Virus record (IMG/VR): IMGVR_UViG_3300050119_000013
Location: 1 to 29,805 of that record
From: a virus
Length of the DNA: 29,805 bases
Strand: one strand, 5' to 3'
Position numbers and translations under genes: made by a program. Numbering within the stretch: position 1 is the first letter of the stretch; every line of letters begins with the position of its first letter. Shown piece by piece: positions 4,267 to 29,805 of this stretch. The notes beneath the pieces are model-generated. The model was not told the DNA's origin and made no database searches. It was given only the letters and a program-made list of their open reading frames with translations.

Positions 4267-4413
4267 TTCGGAATTTAGTGCTGTAGTCTTGCGACACAAT
4301 TTGCAGTGATCTTCGCTTCCGCCATGGGCGATTGTGCGAAGCCACTGAAGCAAGGCTCAACCCGTGATGGGACCGGCCCCCGAACTTCCACCCATCACTC
4401 GGAGAGCAATCCC

Positions 4414-5511
4414 ATGACCAACGTGTCCACTCAGATCAGCGATGTGATCGTCCCCGCCGTCTTCACTCCGTACACGCAGCAGCTTACGATGGAGAAGACC
4501 GCGATCATCCAGAGCGGCGTTGCGGCTCGCGACGACTTCCTCGACAATCTGCTCGCTGGCGGCGGTCTGACCTTCACGGTCCCGTCTTGGCAGGACATCG
4601 GCGATCCGGCCGAGAACGTTTCGGACGACAACCCGAACAACGTGTCCACCCCGAACATCACCCAGACCTCGGCCGAAGTCGCCGTGCGCCTGTCCCGCAA
4701 CGCAAGCTGGAGCACCATGCGTCTGGCCACGGCACTCGCCGGGTCTGACCCGATGCAGTCCATCGCGTCGCGCGTCTCCGACTACTGGGTCCGTCGTCTG
4801 CAGCGCGCCTTCGTCGCCGTTGCCAACGGTGTGTTCGCCGACAACGCCCTCTCCGATCCGACCCATGGTCGCTCGGGCCAGCTTGGCATCAACGCGGCCT
4901 ACGGCCATCAGAACGATCTGACCCATGACATCTCGGGCTCCTCGTTCACCGCAGGCGTCACCAACTTCTCGGCGTCGGCCTTCATCGACACCGCGACCCT
5001 GCTCGGCGACGCCGCCGAGGACGTGCAGGCTGTGTTCATGCATTCGGTCGTTTACTCGACCGCGCAGAAGAACAACCTGATCGACTTCATTCCCGACAGC
5101 GAGGGCAAGGTGAACATCCCGGTGTTCCTCGGTCGCCGGGTGATCGTCGACGACGGCATGCCGAACCCCGCTGGCGATACCAGCAACGGCTCGGGCACGT
5201 CGGCAGGCATCTATCACACGTGGCTCGTTGGCCCCGGCTCATTCCGGCTGGGCGTCGGCACCCCCGTCGTGCCGACCGAAATCTTCCGCAACCCGGACCG
5301 TGGTAACGGCGCGGGCAGCGACACCCTCTACAACCGCGTCGAATGGTGCATCCATCCGGTCGGCCACGCCTACATCGGCTCGCCGTCTTCGGAAGGCGGC
5401 CCGACCAACGCGGCGACCTCGAACAACCTCGCCGCCGCCGGTTCGTGGGTTCGCGTCTTCCCGGAGCGCAAGCAGATCAAGCTGGCCCGCCTGATCACCC
5501 GCGAGAGCTAA
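4414..5511 (+). CDS. Major capsid protein (HK97-fold type)
   Basis: 365 residues from ATG 4414, which has a GGAGAG Shine-Dalgarno at 4401-4406. A GTG at 4306 is in frame but would add residues unlike a capsid N-terminus. The protein has a helical N-terminus without the long delta region of HK97, then an acidic loop (DIGDPAENVSDDNPNN), then the characteristic stretch with LLGDAAEDVQAVFMHS and IPVFLGRRVIVDDGMP that marks the central capsid domain of this family. It ends with the WVRVFPERKQIKLARL strand. It would form the icosahedral shell. Hairpins on both sides, a long leader and a strong Shine-Dalgarno suit very high expression. The fold assignment is from family knowledge. Confidence 0.9.
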   Translation: MTNVSTQISDVIVPAVFTPYTQQLTMEKTAIIQSGVAARDDFLDNLLAGGGLTFTVPSWQDIGDPAENVSDDNPNNVSTPNITQTSAEVAVRLSRNASWSTMRLATALAGSDPMQSIASRVSDYWVRRLQRAFVAVANGVFADNALSDPTHGRSGQLGINAAYGHQNDLTHDISGSSFTAGVTNFSASAFIDTATLLGDAAEDVQAVFMHSVVYSTAQKNNLIDFIPDSEGKVNIPVFLGRRVIVDDGMPNPAGDTSNGSGTSAGIYHTWLVGPGSFRLGVGTPVVPTEIFRNPDRGNGAGSDTLYNRVEWCIHPVGHAYIGSPSSEGGPTNAATSNNLAAAGSWVRVFPERKQIKLARLITRES

Positions 5512-21205: not shown

Positions 21206-21227
21206 CCCTACCCGATGAACCGTAGGG
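21206..21227 (+). other. Short hairpin after the last tail gene
   Basis: A 6-bp stem (CCCTAC at 21206-21211 with GTAGGG at 21222-21227) starts one base after the stop of the previous gene. There is no T-run. It may be part of a compound terminator with the stronger hairpin that follows. Confidence 0.45.
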
Positions 21228-21234
21228 GAATGAT

Positions 21235-21260
21235 TGCCGGGCCGTACCAACGGTCCGGCA
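21235..21260 (+). terminator. Strong hairpin upstream of the tRNA
   Basis: An 11-bp stem with one G-T wobble (TGCCGGGCCGT at 21235-21245 with 21250-21260) closes a 4-base loop and is followed by TTGTATT. It ends the tail transcription unit and/or forms the 5' processing side of the tRNA precursor. Confidence 0.55.
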
Positions 21261-21266
21261 TTGTAT

Positions 21267-21341
21267 TGGGAGAGGGCGATATGGTGACGCAACGGATTGT
21301 TAATCCGTCTATTTCAGGTTCGAGCCCTGATCTCCCAGCCA
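21267..21341 (+). tRNA. tRNA-Asn (anticodon GTT), encoded CCA
   Basis: A complete cloverleaf of 75 bases. The acceptor stem TGGGAGA (21267-21273) pairs perfectly with TCTCCCA (21331-21337), followed by G and an encoded CCA. The D stem is 3 bp (GCG/CGC) with TGGT in the loop. The anticodon stem ACGGA/TCCGT encloses TTGTTAA, with anticodon GTT at 21299-21301. The T stem TCAGG/CCTGA encloses the exact TTCGAGC loop. An oddity is G at positions 8-9 where U8 is nearly universal. Asn AAC codons are frequent in the neighbouring structural genes. It overlaps the longer possible starts of the next gene. Confidence 0.85.
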
Positions 21342-22270
21342 TCCACATCCAAGGCATGCATGGCCTTGGGGATAACATCCATCAACGCGCTGTCGTGCGC
21401 CAACTCATGAAGCGCTACCGGGTCACGTTGGAAACATCGTGGCCCTCGGTGTATCATGATTTTGATATCGGGCTCGCGCGCCGCAACGTCTCGCTCCGCA
21501 CCCAGCAAAAGAACTCGGAACGCGAAGCTGATAAGTTCGTCTCACGTCATCCGCTCACGCGCTCGGGCATGCGCATCAGCTACACCGGCCAGCAAGTGTT
21601 GGCTTCACCTAGCAAGACAATTCTTGAGGTCATGTGCAATGTCACCGGCACCAGTTTCGCGGAAGCGGACTTTAGTTTTCCTATACCTGATAGCTGGGAT
21701 CACGCGCTCGACGCCGCGCTGGGACCTCTCCCGGATCGCGCGAGGGGAAGGCCGTGGGTCGTGTATCGTCCGCTTTGCGCCAGACCTGAGTGGCGCGGCT
21801 CCATGGCGCGAAACGCCGATCCCGCATCTTATCAAGAACTCTTCAACCGAATTCGCGAACAGTTCTTTGTGATCTCCGTTGCCGATCTGGTCCCCACGCG
21901 TGAGTGGATCGTCGGCCCGGAGATGGACGCCGATCTGAAATTCCACAAGGGCGAGCTTCACTTCGAACTGCTCGCTGCTTTGATGCATCGCGCCGACCTC
22001 GTCTTCACGTCGAGTGGCTTCGCTGCGGTGCTCGGCCCTGCAGTTGGCACGCCGACGATCTCCGTGATCGGCGGCTACGAGGACACGCGTTGCCATGACG
22101 CGGGCGCACGCCACGCACCCTACCTCGCAATCGGGCCGAGGGTGCCGTGCACATGCTGGACGTCGGCCTGCATGCGGGACTGCGCCAAGACCATCGATAT
22201 GCAAATCGCTGGCCCGGCCATCGACGATTTTGTGTCCCAAACTTGTATACAAACTGGGGACAAGCAATGA
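21281..22270 (+). CDS. GT9 (heptosyltransferase)-like glycosyltransferase
   Basis: 329 residues if translation starts at ATG 21281, preceded by GGGAGAGGG (which is the tRNA acceptor stem); 304 residues from ATG 21356, directly after the tRNA. Starts further up (21215, 21230) would run through two hairpins. The core begins at IHIQGMHGLGDNIHQRAVVR (residues 22-41), a GT-B N-terminal P-loop-like pattern. The C-terminal half has ALMHRADLVFTSSGFAAVLG then VGTPTISVIGGYED, the nucleotide-sugar-binding pattern of GT9 enzymes, then a CTCW..AC..DC cysteine cluster. It likely transfers a sugar in the cytoplasm as part of the glycan cassette; donor and acceptor are unknown. It overlaps the next gene by ATGA. 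Confidence 0.72.
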   Translation: MVTQRIVNPSISGSSPDLPAIHIQGMHGLGDNIHQRAVVRQLMKRYRVTLETSWPSVYHDFDIGLARRNVSLRTQQKNSEREADKFVSRHPLTRSGMRISYTGQQVLASPSKTILEVMCNVTGTSFAEADFSFPIPDSWDHALDAALGPLPDRARGRPWVVYRPLCARPEWRGSMARNADPASYQELFNRIREQFFVISVADLVPTREWIVGPEMDADLKFHKGELHFELLAALMHRADLVFTSSGFAAVLGPAVGTPTISVIGGYEDTRCHDAGARHAPYLAIGPRVPCTCWTSACMRDCAKTIDMQIAGPAIDDFVSQTCIQTGDKQ

Positions 22271-22920
22271 CCAGCGCCGCGACCCGCGCCTTCGTGATGC
22301 GTGTTCCGCAAGAGAAGCACATCGTCATGGCACCCACGACACAAGACGTCGCCATTGTCATGTGCGGTGGCGGAGACCCTTTCGCAGAGTGGGAACTTGC
22401 AAAGGCGATGTGTGATCGTGCGGGAAAGAAAGTCAGTATCTTCGCCGGGAACGACATGATAGAACACTTTCCATGGGACATCGATCACGCCATCACACTT
22501 CATCCTGACAAACTCCAACTATGGCTTCCGAAGCGGAAGGCCAACGGCTATAACGACCCGCCGCGCATCTGGGCGCATCGGGCATACGAGGGAGCGATCA
22601 CCGACTGGACGCGGGATTGGGCGGGCTCGACGGGCCTGATGTGCATCAAGGTCGCGAGGGAATGTGGGTTCGTCCACATCATCACATGCGGCGTGCACAT
22701 GGCAGTCGAAAGCGATCACTTCGTCCGCAAGCAACCATGGAATGCCGCGCTCGCTTTCAAACGCGCGTGGGTAGTCCGCAGAAGAGAACTTGCGCCGTAC
22801 CTCCGCAGCATGGGAGGCTGGACGCAAGAAACATTCGGAGCACCAACCGAGGAGTGGCTCCGTGAGGAAATTGTTGACGGCAACCGTCGTCAGCCCGAGC
22901 CAACAGGAATGAGAGCATGA
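22267..22920 (+). CDS. Rossmann-like protein of the DUF115/MptE type
   Basis: 217 residues from ATG 22267 (ATGA overlap). Features are [20 protein letters not shown] (a Rossmann-type first strand and glycine loop), [15 protein letters not shown], then [19 protein letters not shown] and [18 protein letters not shown], ending with [19 protein letters not shown]. The LHP/GSTGL/CGV/RSMGGWT set recurs in phages of Alphaproteobacteria and resembles DUF115-like proteins that act on sugars or related carriers. The enzymatic activity is not established; the neighbours suggest surface-glycan or nucleotide-sugar metabolism. Confidence 0.7.
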
Positions 22921-23231
22921 GATACCGAGACGTCGACCCGAAGATCAAACGGTTTTTCCCGTGGTCTCTCTTCCTTATCGCTGCCCTCTTCTTCGTGCTT
23001 GCGTCCGTCGTTGTCGGGCACAGCGAGGAGGACGTGTGGGCGTGCTATGGCGGCGGCCGGTATCAAGCCATGTCGTCGGGCTGGCCTCAGTGCAACGAGA
23101 TGAGCACGTTGTGCCTCAAGGTCCGCGAATACCTAAACACCCATACCGAGGAAGAGGGACGTGCGGAAGCGGTAGCCAAGCACATCCCGCAGTGGCTGAT
23201 CGCCAAAGCAGAAAGGTGCGTCCCCAAATGA
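22917..23231 (+). CDS. Small membrane-anchored protein inside the glycan cassette
   Basis: 104 residues. A basic N-terminus ([14 protein letters not shown]) is followed by one hydrophobic segment at residues 15-34, then an exported-looking domain with four cysteines (43, 59, 66, 101) that could form disulfides in the periplasm. It lies between the Rossmann protein and the dehydratase, with ATGA overlaps on both sides, so it is cotranslated with sugar enzymes. Possible roles are membrane anchoring of the glycan machinery or superinfection exclusion. Neither can be shown from sequence. Confidence 0.65.
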
Positions 23232-24232
23232 AGAAGGCACTCATCACCGGCATCACCGGCCAAGACGGCTCGTACCTCGCAGAACTCCTCCTCTCCAAAA
23301 ACTATGAAGTCCACGGTCTCAAGCGTCGCGCGTCGAGTTTCAACACTTCGCGCATCGATCATCTGCCGGAGTTGAAACTTCACTACGGCGACATGACGGA
23401 CGGATCGAACCTGACGCGGCTGCTGCAGGACGTCCGGCCGCATGAGGTCTACAACCTCGCGGCCCAGTCGCACGTGCAAGTCTCTTTCGAGACGCCGGAG
23501 TACACCGCCAACGCGGACGGGCTCGGCGCGATGCGGCTGCTGGAGGGCATCCGCGTGCTGGGGATGGAAGACGACGTGCGTCTGTATCAGGCGAGCACGT
23601 CGGAACTTTATGGCAACTCGGGCGGTTTCAATAGGAACGAGCAAACGCCGTTCATGCCGCGCAGTCCCTATGCGGCTGCGAAGCTCTATGCGTACTGGAT
23701 TACGGTGAACTACCGCGAGGCCTATGGCATCCACGCGAGCAACGGCATCCTTTTCAATCACGAAAGCCCCCGGCGCGGGGCTACGTTTGTCACGCGCAAA
23801 ATCACCAAGGCCGTGTGCGCAATCGCCAAGGGTACGCAGGACTGCCTGTATCTCGGCAACATCGACGCCATGCGCGACTGGGGCCACGCCAAGGACTATG
23901 TGCAGGCGATGTACCTCGCCGTGCAGCAGCCGCAGCCCGACGATTATGTGATCGCTACGGGAGAGGCGCATTCGGTCCGCGAGTTTGTCGAGCTTGCCTT
24001 CGCCGAGGTCGGGATTGACATCGGCTGGACGGGCAAGGGCGACCGCGAGGTCGGGATCGATACCAAGTCCATGCGCCCGGTTGTCCGCATCGATCCAAAA
24101 TATTTTCGGCCAACCGAAGTAAACCTCTTGCGCGGCGACGCGACAAAGGCTATGCAGGCCCTCGGCTGGCGGCCCAAAATCGGCTTCAGGACGCTCGTCA
24201 AGGAAATGGTTGCCGCCGACTTGGATGCCTGA
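23228..24232 (+). CDS. gmd: GDP-mannose 4,6-dehydratase
   Basis: 334 residues. Converts GDP-D-mannose to GDP-4-keto-6-deoxy-D-mannose. The SDR cofactor motif [12 protein letters not shown] is at residues 8-19. The catalytic set is visible: T124 and E126 in QASTSELYG, then Y148 and K152 in [20 protein letters not shown]. The signature [13 protein letters not shown] is intact, followed by [18 protein letters not shown], and the end ([23 protein letters not shown]) is typical. The internal loop before IDPKYFRP is shorter than in E. coli Gmd (about 373 residues). The ATG overlaps the upstream stop. The first committed enzyme of a GDP-6-deoxyhexose pathway, cytoplasmic. Longer in-frame upstream starts overlap the previous gene and are rejected. 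Confidence 0.95.
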
Positions 24233-24234
24233 GC

Positions 24235-25857
24235 ATGAACCCGGACACGCGCGTCGCCATCTGTTGCTATCAAGGGGACGCGCATCAGGTCCTCGAACTG
24301 ATGCCGTTCTACCAGCACCACGAATGTCCTATCACGATCCTCTCGCCCGAAGACAGCCCCGTGCTCCTACCCGCGCCGCTCGACTGCCGCATGGGCGGCA
24401 AGCGCTGCTACATCGGCTGGGATGGTATTGAGCGCATGAAGGCGCACTTGCGCATCCTGATCAACGAGACCTCGGAAAACTTTTTCCTCATCAACGACGC
24501 CGACAGCTTTTGCATCACACCCGAACTTCCGGCCTACCTCTATGCCGAGCCGGACGTTCTGTGGACAAGCGTCTTCCCTAACGACATCCCAGAACAACAG
24601 CCGGGCTTTGCCGAGGGCATGCCGCACGTTGCCTTCCACCCGCCGTGGTTCTTGTCTCGCGGTGTGATCGAGAAGCTGCTCGCGGTCGGCGACGACGTGC
24701 AGCCTAACGAGTTTCTCCCCTTCATCGACTACTGGATGCTTGAGGCTGCGGTCAAGGCGGGCATCACGTGGAAGTCGTTCGAGCAGTCCATGAGCTTGCC
24801 GACCAACTCCGACCCAGCCTGCGCCCAACGTGCGCTGGAGATGGCTTCACAAGGGGCCAAGTTTTATCACTCGGTAAAGACCGGCGCGTTCGCCGGTAGG
24901 CTGCTCAACGCCTACACCAGCCTCGGCCGTAACTGGGAGACGGTTGTCTCCGTGCACTGCTACGATGGCGACCGCCACCAAGTCGAAGGAAATCTTCCCG
25001 CCTATGTGCACCATCAGGGGAGCAAGGTAGTAGTTATTTCGCCTACCAACAGCACAGTCGTCATCCCCGGCGTCGACAACATCCATGCGGGCCACGTCGG
25101 ATATATCGGACAGGTCTCGCTTGACCGGCAACTGGCGCAGATGCAGGCGCTGTTGACGAGCTACCCTGATCACAAGTTCTTTCTGCTCAACGATGCTGAT
25201 AGCGTCGTGCTCGACCCCATGATCCCCACGTACCTGTATGAGGAAGATGTCGTCTGGTCGAACACGGTCGTCGATGGCGTTCCGAACCGCGAGCCCTTCC
25301 CTCATGGCTGGCCTACTCTCGCATTTCAACCGCCGTATTTCGTCTCCCGGCGCACGCTGGAAAAGCTCGTCGAAGCTGGGCTAAGCGGCAACCCTCTTGT
25401 GAAGGCTACCGGCTCGCGACCCTTCATCGACTTCTACATGCTGCAACTGACGATGGTGGCAGGCCTGCCATGGAAGAGGATGAAGGACGCGCTAAGCTGG
25501 CCGATCTCCATCAACCAACAGACACACCCAAACCCGAGCCCGCAACAGATCGAGATGTACGATCACGGGTATCGGCTCGCGGTCGACGCTGTTCGCAACG
25601 AGGGCGGCACCATCGTCCACTCTGTCAAGGACGGAGAAACCACTGCGGAGCTTCTCGACTTGCGGCGGCAGTTCAAAGAGGATCACCCGGGCTGGACCCC
25701 AAACGATAGGAGGGCCCCCGTCGTCGGCAACCCTGCGCTCCGTCGAAACCACCGCCACCCAGCGACGCAAGCCGGAGCTAACATAGACGCGGCCAGACGA
25801 CAACGCGCGATACTGGTGCAGCAACAACGTGCGCGCTTTACAGGAAACAAGGCCTGA
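24235..25857 (+). CDS. Tandem-duplicated putative GT-A glycosyltransferase
   Basis: 540 residues, starting 3 bases after the dehydratase. Two copies of one domain lie in tandem, about 5-228 and 235-480. Matching landmarks are: the opening strands TRVAICCYQGDAHQV and TVVSVHCYDGDRHQV; NFFLINDADS (D88, D90) and KFFLLNDADS (D320, D322); PAYLYAEPDVLW and PTYLYEEDVVW; PFIDYWML (162-169) and PFIDFYML (396-403); FYHSVKTG and IVHSVKDG. The paired acidic residues within NDADS fit a DxD metal/nucleotide-sugar motif of GT-A enzymes. The last 60 residues are basic and disordered. A role in glycan transfer or polymerisation is inferred from the motif and neighbours. Confidence 0.7.
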   Translation: MNPDTRVAICCYQGDAHQVLELMPFYQHHECPITILSPEDSPVLLPAPLDCRMGGKRCYIGWDGIERMKAHLRILINETSENFFLINDADSFCITPELPAYLYAEPDVLWTSVFPNDIPEQQPGFAEGMPHVAFHPPWFLSRGVIEKLLAVGDDVQPNEFLPFIDYWMLEAAVKAGITWKSFEQSMSLPTNSDPACAQRALEMASQGAKFYHSVKTGAFAGRLLNAYTSLGRNWETVVSVHCYDGDRHQVEGNLPAYVHHQGSKVVVISPTNSTVVIPGVDNIHAGHVGYIGQVSLDRQLAQMQALLTSYPDHKFFLLNDADSVVLDPMIPTYLYEEDVVWSNTVVDGVPNREPFPHGWPTLAFQPPYFVSRRTLEKLVEAGLSGNPLVKATGSRPFIDFYMLQLTMVAGLPWKRMKDALSWPISINQQTHPNPSPQQIEMYDHGYRLAVDAVRNEGGTIVHSVKDGETTAELLDLRRQFKEDHPGWTPNDRRAPVVGNPALRRNHRHPATQAGANIDAARRQRAILVQQQRARFTGNKA

Positions 25858-25863
25858 CATCAC

Positions 25864-26751
25864 ATGCTTGATTTGTCCCGCGTCACCCTCCTCTTCGTTG
25901 AGACCCGCGCCCACGAAATCACGAACCGCGTCATAAAAGACTGCCTGAGCAAGGCGGTCTTCGGTGAAGTGCTGATCTTCACCGACAAGCCGGATGAGTT
26001 CGGCGATCTCTGTGCGCGCGTCGTGCCGTGCCGAGACTTCCCCAACAAGAAAGAAGCGGGCGCGTTCTACTACTCGCACGCCATGGAGCTTGTCGAGACG
26101 GACTTCGCTTTCATGCTCGAATGGGACGCGGGCATCTATGACACATCGAAGTGGCGGCCGGAGTTCTTCGACTACGACTACATCGGCGCACCGTGGAAAG
26201 TCCGACCCGGCGATCTTCACGACGTAGGCAACGGCGGCTTCACCCTGATGTCCAAGCGGCTCGGCCACCGGCTCTGCAATGACCGCCGCATCACGCCGGT
26301 CTACACCGACATGGATGTCTGCCGGTTCGCGCGGACGCGACTGGAGAACAGCGACACGGGCTTCAAGTGGGCACCGACCGATCTCGCTGGCAAATTCTCA
26401 TGGGAGCTTCTGCCGCGAGACCCTGAGCATTTTGGTTTCCATGGCGCGTTCAACTGGCCGGACACACTGTCCAAAGAAGAACTGATCATCCGGGCCAAGC
26501 TCATGCTCAAGAGCGAGTACCTCACGCTCAAGCTCCGGGATGTCTATAGGACCGCGCCGTGGATCATTGGCGAGTTCACACCAGAAGAGCTAGAGCGGTT
26601 CTCCGAGATAGTGCCCGTGGGACACTTGCTCAAGCCTCGCATCCCCGGTATGATGTCCTCGCAACAGCGCGCGGCGATGCAGTTGATGCAGGCGCAGCGC
26701 CGAGGCTTCGTCGCTCGCACTCATCCCACAACACAAGGACAGAAAGCATGA
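25864..26751 (+). CDS. DUF5672-like putative glycosyltransferase
   Basis: 295 residues. The key pattern is FMLEWDAGIYDTSKW, then FFDYDYIGAPWK, then VGNGGFTLMSKRLG, then DMDVCRFARTRLE, and FGFHGAFNWPDTL: the layout of DUF5672 proteins, a group related to glycosyltransferases of surface polysaccharides. The Glu-Trp-Asp motif at the end of strand 4 could take the place of DxD. Residues 255-295 form a helical basic tail. It is coupled by ATGA to the reductase that follows, so it probably works with the GDP-sugar made by its neighbours. Confidence 0.8.
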   Translation: MLDLSRVTLLFVETRAHEITNRVIKDCLSKAVFGEVLIFTDKPDEFGDLCARVVPCRDFPNKKEAGAFYYSHAMELVETDFAFMLEWDAGIYDTSKWRPEFFDYDYIGAPWKVRPGDLHDVGNGGFTLMSKRLGHRLCNDRRITPVYTDMDVCRFARTRLENSDTGFKWAPTDLAGKFSWELLPRDPEHFGFHGAFNWPDTLSKEELIIRAKLMLKSEYLTLKLRDVYRTAPWIIGEFTPEELERFSEIVPVGHLLKPRIPGMMSSQQRAAMQLMQAQRRGFVARTHPTTQGQKA

Positions 26752-27713
26752 ACAAGAACAGCCGTATTCTCGTTACCGGCGCGGCCGGGCTCGCCGGGTC
26801 CGCCGTCATCGCGCAACTCAAACGGCGCGGGTTCACTGACTTCATTGGCGTCGCTCGCGCCGCGTGCGATCTCCGTGATACCCGAGCAACTGCAGACGCG
26901 TTCTCCGACATTCGGCCCGAGTATGTCTTTCACGCCGCCGCGACCGTCTATGGCTTGCAGGGCAATATCGATAATCAGGCCAAGGCGATCTATGACAACA
27001 CGCTGATCAACACCAGCGTGATCGATGCCTCGCGACGAGTGGGCGTCAAGAAGCTCGTCGCCATGGGCACGAACGCCGTTTACCCGTGGCCCGCCGTGCT
27101 GCCCTATCGCGAGGAAACCATCTTCGACGGTCGGCCGCATGAAGGCGAGGCCGCCTACGGACAGGCGAAGCGTCACATGCTCGCGATGCTCGAAGCCTAT
27201 CACGCGAACTACGGGCTCGACTACACCTACCTCGTCAGCGGCAACCTGTACGGTCCGCGCGACCGCTTCAACCCGGTCTCCGGCCACGTGCTGCCGTCCC
27301 TGATCGCGAAGTTCTACGAGGCCGCGCAGACGCAAGACGACGTCGTCAGCATCTGGGGCGATGGCTCGGCACGCCGTGACTTCCTGTATAGCGAAGACCT
27401 CGCCGATCTTGTTCTGCTCTTCATGCGGAACGCCGACATCCAGTGTGACAATTTCACCGGAGCGATCAATATCGGCAGTGGCACCACGCACAGCATCGCG
27501 GAGGTCGCGAAGATGTTGACAAGTATCAGCGGCCTGTCTCAGGACCGGGTTGTCTTCGATACCTCCAAACCGACTGGACGGCCGACCTGTTTCAGCGATC
27601 TGTCTCGGCTTGACAGTCTGGGCTGGACCTTCAGCACGCCGCTGCATCTCGGCTTGTCGAACACCTACAACTGGTACGAGGCTCAGCAAACTCTCACTAA
27701 GCCCCAGAGCTAA
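26748..27713 (+). CDS. GDP-fucose-synthase-family reductase with catalytic Cys replaced
   Basis: 321 residues from ATG 26748, overlapping the previous TGA. An SDR enzyme acting on GDP-4-keto-6-deoxymannose made by the dehydratase. The cofactor motif GAAGLAG is at 11-17, and Y137 and K141 form the YxxxK pair. Alignment with E. coli Fcl/WcaG (from memory) is clear across NLYGP.D.F, HVLPSL, VVFDTSKP.G and the RL..LGW ending. In E. coli the motif is GSSCIYP with Ser107 and Cys109; here it is GTNAVYP (T108, N109, A110). His179 is kept as H180. Because Cys109 is the epimerisation base in E. coli, this enzyme may reduce without, or with altered, 3,5-epimerisation, giving a sugar other than GDP-L-fucose. 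Confidence 0.9.
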   Translation: MNKNSRILVTGAAGLAGSAVIAQLKRRGFTDFIGVARAACDLRDTRATADAFSDIRPEYVFHAAATVYGLQGNIDNQAKAIYDNTLINTSVIDASRRVGVKKLVAMGTNAVYPWPAVLPYREETIFDGRPHEGEAAYGQAKRHMLAMLEAYHANYGLDYTYLVSGNLYGPRDRFNPVSGHVLPSLIAKFYEAAQTQDDVVSIWGDGSARRDFLYSEDLADLVLLFMRNADIQCDNFTGAINIGSGTTHSIAEVAKMLTSISGLSQDRVVFDTSKPTGRPTCFSDLSRLDSLGWTFSTPLHLGLSNTYNWYEAQQTLTKPQS

Positions 27714-27809: not shown

Positions 27810-28157
27810 ATGTTCACCGATCCAACTCTTCCGGTTGACCTCCTCGTCAACGTCGCTGTCGCCATCGTTGCAGGCGGCCTTTGTCTCAGCCCGCTCGGCA
27901 CCAAGCTGAAGGACCTCTTCAAGGGCGTTCCGTCCGACCTCCGCACCGCGCTCAACAACGTCGAGACCGACGCGACCGCGAAGTTCAAGGCGGCGACCGC
28001 GCCCGTCCCCGTGAAGCTGCCTGCCTCTCCGGCCGCTGCCGCTGTTGCTGCCGCCGCTGCTGCGGTCGCCGCTCCCGCTGCGCCTGCGCCCGCTGCGACC
28101 GTCATCCTGCAGCCCGCGCCCGCGCCGCTCACTCCGCTGACCCCGCCCGTCGCCTAA
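27810..28157 (+). CDS. Small single-span membrane protein with Ala/Pro tail
   Basis: 115 residues from ATG 27810 with GAAAGG upstream. Residues 10-26 (LLVNVAVAIVAGGLCLS) form one hydrophobic segment, followed by a charged amphipathic helix (TKLKDLFKGVPSDLRTALNN) and a long Ala/Pro-rich extended tail. There are no recognised domains. It is the first gene of the region that holds the endolysin, so a holin-like or spanin-like accessory function is possible but not shown. Confidence 0.65.
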   Translation: MFTDPTLPVDLLVNVAVAIVAGGLCLSPLGTKLKDLFKGVPSDLRTALNNVETDATAKFKAATAPVPVKLPASPAAAAVAAAAAAVAAPAAPAPAATVILQPAPAPLTPLTPPVA

Positions 28158-28226: not shown

Positions 28227-29066
28227 ATGTCCATTCTCACTTACATCCCGTTCGTCGACCGCATGATCGACAAATAAGAGGGCGGTTTCGGTTGGAATAA
28301 GTTGGACCCGGGTGGCCCGACGAAATACGGCATCACGTGCTATGACCTCGCGGCCCACATGGGCCAGAAGATGGACAGCATGACGCGCTGGGCTCCCATC
28401 GTTCAAGCGATGACCCGTGCGACTGCGGAAGCCATTTACAAAACCAAATACGCGGCTGCAATCCGCTATGACGATCTCCCGGCGGGCGTCGATTGCACCA
28501 TGATGGATTACGGCGTCAACTCCGGCACGTCCCGCGCGGTGCGCTCGGCTCGCGCGATCCTGAAGATGCCCGGCAGCGGCGTGATGGATCAGGCCCTGCT
28601 CGACGCGATCAAGAAATGCGATCCCTCGGTGTTCATCACCGCGATGTGCGCCGAGCGGCTGCACTTCATGAAGCAAATCCGCACGTGGTCGACGTTCGGC
28701 GGCGGCTGGACCGCGCGCGTCAACGACCTCAAGGCCTATGCCCTGCATCTGGCGAAGGGCGGCACTCCCGCTGCGGCCCCGGCTGCGACCGATCTCTCCC
28801 ACACCGTGCAGCCCAAGGCAATCCACGTTGGCAAGACCGCGCCGGGCAAGACCACTGGCGGCGCGGTTGCGACCGGCAGCGCTGCCGCCGCTGCGGGCTT
28901 CGACTGGTACTACGTCGTCGCCGCCGTCGTGGCCTGCATCATCGTGGGCGTTGGCTACGAGGCCTACTCGGCGAACAAGGCTGGCAACGCCAACCTCGCC
29001 GTCGCTTTCCCGCCCGGCACTGTGCTGCCGACCATTCCGGTAGCGCCGCTCGTCAAGACGGCATAA
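28227..29066 (+). pseudogene. GH108 endolysin with in-frame TAA before the catalytic Glu
   Basis: ATG 28227 has GGAG at 28217-28220. After 16 codons (MSILTYIPFVDRMIDK) TAA 28275-28277 interrupts the frame, which then continues at GAG 28278 as EGGFGWNKLDPGGPTKYGIT: the GH108 catalytic motif, where the Glu is the active-site acid. The frame continues open to TAA 29064-29066, with the second GH108 motif MMDYGVNSGTSRAVRSARAI, a peptidoglycan-binding-like part and a C-terminal membrane segment (YYVVAAVVACIIVGVGY). Without suppression only a TTG at 28302 is available, which would omit the Glu. It would otherwise cut peptidoglycan at lysis. It may be a true nonsense mutation, readthrough or a sequencing error. 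Confidence 0.8.
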
Positions 29067-29078
29067 GGACCAACGATC

Positions 29079-29429
29079 ATGTGGCAGACCGTCAAGACCA
29101 ACGCCCTCGTCTTCCACCGTTCATTCCACAAGTCCGCCGTCATTTGGTTTGGGCGCATTCAGGTTTTGCTCGGCGCAGCTTGGTTCGCCTTGACGGCGGT
29201 CGACCTCGCGCCGCTGATCGGCAACCCGAAGTACGTCACGGCGTGGCTCGTCTTCTCCGGGCTCGTCACTGAGTACGCGCGCCGGTCCAACACCGAAGAG
29301 AATGAGGACGGTCGGCTGGTGCCCAAGCGCGACAACCAGACGATCACCGTCAACGTCAACTCCGCCTCCCCGGCGGCTGCACCGGCCCCGGCGTCTCCGC
29401 TGGGCCCGTCTTCCGACCTGACCAAGTAA
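29079..29429 (+). CDS. Holin-like two-span membrane protein
   Basis: 116 residues; ATG 29079 is 12 bases after the lysin stop with AAGGA upstream. Two hydrophobic segments (about 28-45, VLLGAAWFALTAVDLAPL, and 51-64, KYVTAWLVFSGLVTEY) are followed by a charged and Ala/Pro/Ser-rich soluble tail. A small membrane protein beside the endolysin is typical of holins or their partners. The N-terminal FHRSFHKSAVIWFGRIQ helix is familiar from phage proteins annotated as holin-like. It is not confirmed by any diagnostic motif. Confidence 0.65.
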   Translation: MWQTVKTNALVFHRSFHKSAVIWFGRIQVLLGAAWFALTAVDLAPLIGNPKYVTAWLVFSGLVTEYARRSNTEENEDGRLVPKRDNQTITVNVNSASPAAAPAPASPLGPSSDLTK

Positions 29430-29441
29430 GGACGTCCCCCA

Positions 29442-29805
29442 ATGCTCGCCCTCCTCACGGCCATCCCCTCGCTGATCGGCGGACTGTTCGGCACCGTCAA
29501 CTCCATCACCGCAGCCATCTCCAACGAGAAGCTCGCCGCGATCACCGCGACCACGCAGCGCGACCAGATCGCCGCCAACGAGCGTGTGTCGCAGTTGCAG
29601 GCGCAGCGCGACCTGATGATCGCCGAAGCTGGAACCGGGTCTCGAATAAATATGATCATGCGAGCCTGCTTCGCTTTTGTGGTGCTGTGCGTTGTCGCTA
29701 AGCTTTATCTCTGGGACAAGGTCATTGGCTCATTCGTCGGCTGCTCGCAAGCGGCGGCGGGAACGTGTGGCATGTTCACAACCGATCCGTTCGACGACAA
29801 CGCGT
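29442..29805 (+). CDS. Holin-superfamily-like membrane protein (partial, runs off the window)
   Basis: ATG 29442 to the window edge gives 121 codons without a stop. Layout: an N-terminal hydrophobic/amphipathic helix (LLTAIPSLIGGLFGTVNSIT), a polar coiled coil (TATTQRDQIAANERVSQLQA), then RINMIMRACFAFVVLCVVAK and LYLWDKVIGSFVGC. The order helix, charged coil, EAGSRIN-like junction, membrane segment and WDKV motif matches 3TM holin-like phage proteins. It likely oligomerises in the inner membrane at lysis. The C-terminus is missing. Confidence 0.6.
   Translation, partial: MLALLTAIPSLIGGLFGTVNSITAAISNEKLAAITATTQRDQIAANERVSQLQAQRDLMIAEAGTGSRINMIMRACFAFVVLCVVAKLYLWDKVIGSFVGCSQAAAGTCGMFTTDPFDDNA

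Follow-up and report, generated by a model that had tools for sequence, protein, structure and literature searches.

In this virus record a single in-frame TAA interrupts the endolysin gene, immediately before the glutamate of the EGG motif. The stop is very probably an isolated third-base change in a conserved tyrosine codon with no regulatory role, arising either from a base-call or assembly error or from a very recent nonsense mutation. The observation is true and its cause is ordinary; no new mechanism is indicated. The window, meaning the whole stretch of DNA analysed, comprises all 29,805 bases of the virus record. The ends of the record are classed as linear, and it is probably a fragment. 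It closes with a lysis cluster composed of a small protein, the endolysin, a small putative membrane protein and a putative holin. The features of this cluster are the following.

27810-28157, + strand: small protein encoded ahead of the lysin, with a hydrophobic segment at its N-terminus, ending in TAA and weakly conserved in relatives (open-frame listing, orthologue comparison)
28227-29066, + strand: GH108 endolysin gene, interrupted by one in-frame TAA (PF05838 and PHROG 315 matches behind the stop; whole-length relatives)
28275-28277, + strand: in-frame TAA, codon 17 of the endolysin frame (translation; tyrosine, TAC or TAT, in 28 of 28 close homologues)
28278-28280, + strand: Glu codon (GAG) of the EGG motif, directly after the TAA (invariant column; aligns with EGGY of PDB 7dnp and 2ikb)
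28302-29066, + strand: TTG-start frame, the earliest possible restart behind the stop, without the EGG motif (open-frame listing, start-codon check)
29079-29429, + strand: intact gene of the lysis cluster for a small putative membrane protein, ending in TAAG (open-frame listing, orthologues, stop contexts)
29442-29805, + strand: putative holin, running off the record end (weak PF11351 similarity; orthologues)

The endolysin frame starts at the ATG at 28227, reads 16 codons, meets the TAA at 28275-28277 and is then open up to the TAA at 29064-29066. Its translation is MSILTYIPFVDRMIDK before the stop and EGGFGWNKLDPGGPTKYGIT behind it, for a length of 279 residues when the stop is counted as one residue. 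A sequence-only reading had described this arrangement, with a good Shine-Dalgarno sequence at the ATG and no start codon between the TAA and the Glu codon, and each of these points was borne out: GGAG lies 6-7 bases 5' of the ATG, and the first in-frame candidates after the stop are a TTG at 28302 and then an ATG at 28359, both past the Glu. This Glu is presumably the catalytic one of GH108 enzymes. It would be present in the translated product only if the stop were an error or were read through.

The GH108 motif that had been recognised behind the stop was likewise recovered by profile searches. Directly after the TAA come the first residues of a Glyco_hydro_108 (PF05838) endolysin (EGGFGW..DPGGPTKYGIT). 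Downstream of the stop, the sequence matched PF05838 with an E-value of 1.7e-16 and 61 bits, above the curated cut-off of 21.2, which places it in the family, and matched the PHROG 315 endolysin with an E-value of 2.3e-33. When the profile was carried across the stop (28263-28526, with the one TAA inside), the score was 67.4 bits. Comparison with known Glyco_hydro_108 endolysins (PF05838, PHROG 315; PDB 7dnp, 2ikb and 2is5) showed that the window gene shares the EGG motif, the DPGG.T..GIT motif and the full domain length, and that it too has genes for small membrane proteins and a putative holin as neighbours in its cluster. It differs from them by its single in-frame stop, the TAA just ahead of the Glu, and by a C-terminal hydrophobic segment, although the latter is present in its near relatives. 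This membrane-like segment (28896-28980, + strand) ends both the window endolysin and near relatives of about 245-270 residues, and shorter homologues (175-210 residues) are seemingly too short to carry it. The putative holin resembled the GTA holin family PF11351 with an E-value of 0.00068 and 20.6 bits, below the cut-off of 24.8.

We then compared the same codon in relatives, using 31 loci from viral contig searches and two initial ones, a set that includes a few near duplicates of each other. The codon before EGG, read in 32 of these loci, was TAC in 21, TAT in 7, CAC in 3 and TTC in 1. Tyrosine thus occupied the stop position in all 28 close homologues (21 TAC, 7 TAT), with EGG right after it, which answers the question of the homologous residue that the sequence-only reading had raised. 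The nearest relative, locus L095 of record G018, reads MSVITYIQTIDRIIDKYEGGYGWNKKDPGGPTKYGIT at this place; its identity to the window gene over the first 179 residues is 77%. Since every close homologue has TAC or TAT, the window gene is one third-base substitution away from its family. A stop results from 2.9% of the single substitutions in the window's sense codons, and the change from Tyr to TAA accounts for 0.26%; against this chance background, a single random substitution is enough to give the observed TAA.

Among 2.9 million viral contigs, a pattern search for TAA or TAG followed by EGG[YF]GW found no lysin with such a stop, while the tyrosine version of the pattern gave 48 stretches in the same collection, about 28 of them lysins. 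The sole two matches to the stop pattern (L138 and L139) were rejected as chance, non-lysin stretches with frames full of stops. An independent contig of the same species covering the stop site was not found in this viral collection, from which very near records may be left out, and bacterial genomes scanned with the lysin alignment gave no relative.

The gene shows no decay behind the stop. In the catalytic domain, 24 other lysins share 43 unvarying columns, and the window matches every one of them. Its differences from L095 at codon positions 1, 2 and 3 number 29, 23 and 72, a distribution like that of pairs of intact genes. This lack of decay implies that the change is either very young or absent from the actual virus. 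The rest of the record is equally intact: none of the window's other genes (some 30) contains an internal stop, and orthologues in six related records aligned in one frame over nearly their full length, the exceptions being variable tail genes and glycosyltransferase-like genes. The record is therefore otherwise clean, and the claim that only one gene is affected holds. The stop site is 1.5 kb inside the contig, away from the edge, and no second error is visible; the contig gives no impression of poor overall quality, which speaks against an error. As a caution, one consensus base can be enough to make an essential gene of a metagenomic virus record seem broken, and comparison with relatives quickly shows that the gene and its neighbours are otherwise ordinary.

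Between the two ordinary causes, we infer that a base-call or assembly error in the metagenomic contig is to be preferred, by somewhat better than an even chance, and that the TAA is without effect. GH108 was found once in each of seven related records of 62-127 kb, and searches of these seven records for PF00959, PF01510 and PF01464 gave no match, leaving GH108 alone of the four muralytic families tested. The GH108 lysin is probably the phage's only one. A null allele of a sole lysin should not persist in a replicating virus, which favours error, and a truly broken copy should not lyse the host.

A real and recent nonsense mutation, carried by a defective or integrated genome, is the less likely of the two causes, at about one chance in three. 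The phage would then be left without active endolysin, and phage lysis would be impossible unless helped. The family codon one substitution away, decay not yet present and the TAA as the assembled consensus base all agree with such a mutation, and the record could stem from a defective genome or from a prophage that has only just been disabled. However, only a single muralytic family of the four tested occurs in related records, and a replicating population should lose the null; in addition, the window has no signs of a decaying prophage and its other genes are all open. The weighting of these causes (error first, recent nonsense mutation second, readthrough far behind, the rest shared by others) is a judgement and not a computation.

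The sequence-only reading had offered three options for the stop. A broken gene and a wrong base call are both supported by the tyrosine in 28 of 28 homologues and the single substitution, whereas readthrough as a timing control for lysis found no support in relatives, suppressor tRNAs, RNA structure or the use of UAAG as an ordinary terminator by neighbouring genes. It would be a new way of timing lysis if the stop were functional. Programmed readthrough is expected to be conserved and to have a favourable context. Readthrough of the TAA, by a near-cognate tRNA-Tyr or similar, that would delay or limit the endolysin and so time lysis is improbable here, in spite of the fully conserved frame behind the stop. 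Slightly less probable still is the specific case in which one lineage gained the UAA just before the catalytic Glu and lives on low readthrough, with scarce endolysin and delayed lysis. The stop is conserved in no relative (0 of 28, and none in the viral collection). No stimulating RNA structure was detected, folding being no better than that of shuffled sequences behind the stop (28275-28360, z 1.04) or at the gene start (z -0.01). UAAG also serves as the normal end of four genes, the lysin and its downstream neighbour among them. Asn-GTT is the sole tRNA of the 29.8 kb record; no suppressor tRNA was detected there or in the fetched regions of six relatives, which contained no tRNA genes, although the record is a fragment and one may lie elsewhere in the genome.

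In the passages of PMC10607447 and PMC10746230 that cite Borges et al. 2022, stop-recoding phages are described as reassigning TAG or TGA across many genes, among them those for lysis. Suppressor tRNAs are often, though not always, encoded by recoded phages. The window resembles these phages, as described there, in having an in-frame stop within a lysis gene, a likeness that speaks for readthrough. It differs in that the stop is a TAA, at a single codon of a single gene, with no suppressor tRNA found, relatives that lack the stop and an otherwise standard code. In three bacteria, a reporter study put unprogrammed readthrough of UAG and UGA at about 0.01-0.08% (PMC9481147), which counts against readthrough here. 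T7, however, was shown to be able to replicate when the cell contains some ten molecules of a host factor whose gene carries early stops (PMC12645430); survival on rare readthrough is therefore not unthinkable, and it is for this that a small probability is kept for readthrough.

Translation restart behind the stop, at the TTG at 28302 or the ATG at 28359, to give a shortened, non-catalytic protein with a function is very improbable. The TTG does open a frame of 254 codons, but its product lacks the invariant EGG Glu, so active enzyme is not expected from it, and no relative has such a layout. A reassigned code in which TAA means tyrosine fits the family residue at that codon but is barely credible and was rejected, because TAA is the terminator of 14 genes, which stop about where their relatives stop wherever orthologues are available, all 214 Tyr codons are TAC or TAT, and there is no further in-frame TAA.

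Several other observations were made in the record. The tRNA-Asn (GTT) gene (21267-21341, + strand) lies inside the start of an ORF listed at 21215-22270; in relatives the alignment begins no earlier than about residue 41, which places the probable gene start near the tRNA end or after it. The tail and lysis genes are separated by an extended run of sugar and glycosyltransferase-like genes (21215-27713, + strand), which relatives retain. Sequence motifs point to a nucleotide-sugar dehydratase-like gene at 23228-24232 and to an epimerase-like one at 26748-27713 among its members. The 540-residue protein at 24235-25857 (+ strand) has halves that match shorter proteins of relatives (residues 1-215 in G018 and 225-540 in G002) and is perhaps a fusion or a tandem duplication of glycosyltransferase-like genes. 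Bacterial genomes scanned with the capsid protein gave one distant match only, and its record bears the title of a Verrucomicrobiales MAG. The phage group is a common one: dozens of viral contigs carry its major capsid protein (4405-5511, + strand) at 80-93% identity, whereas the tail, lysis and sugar genes vary widely.
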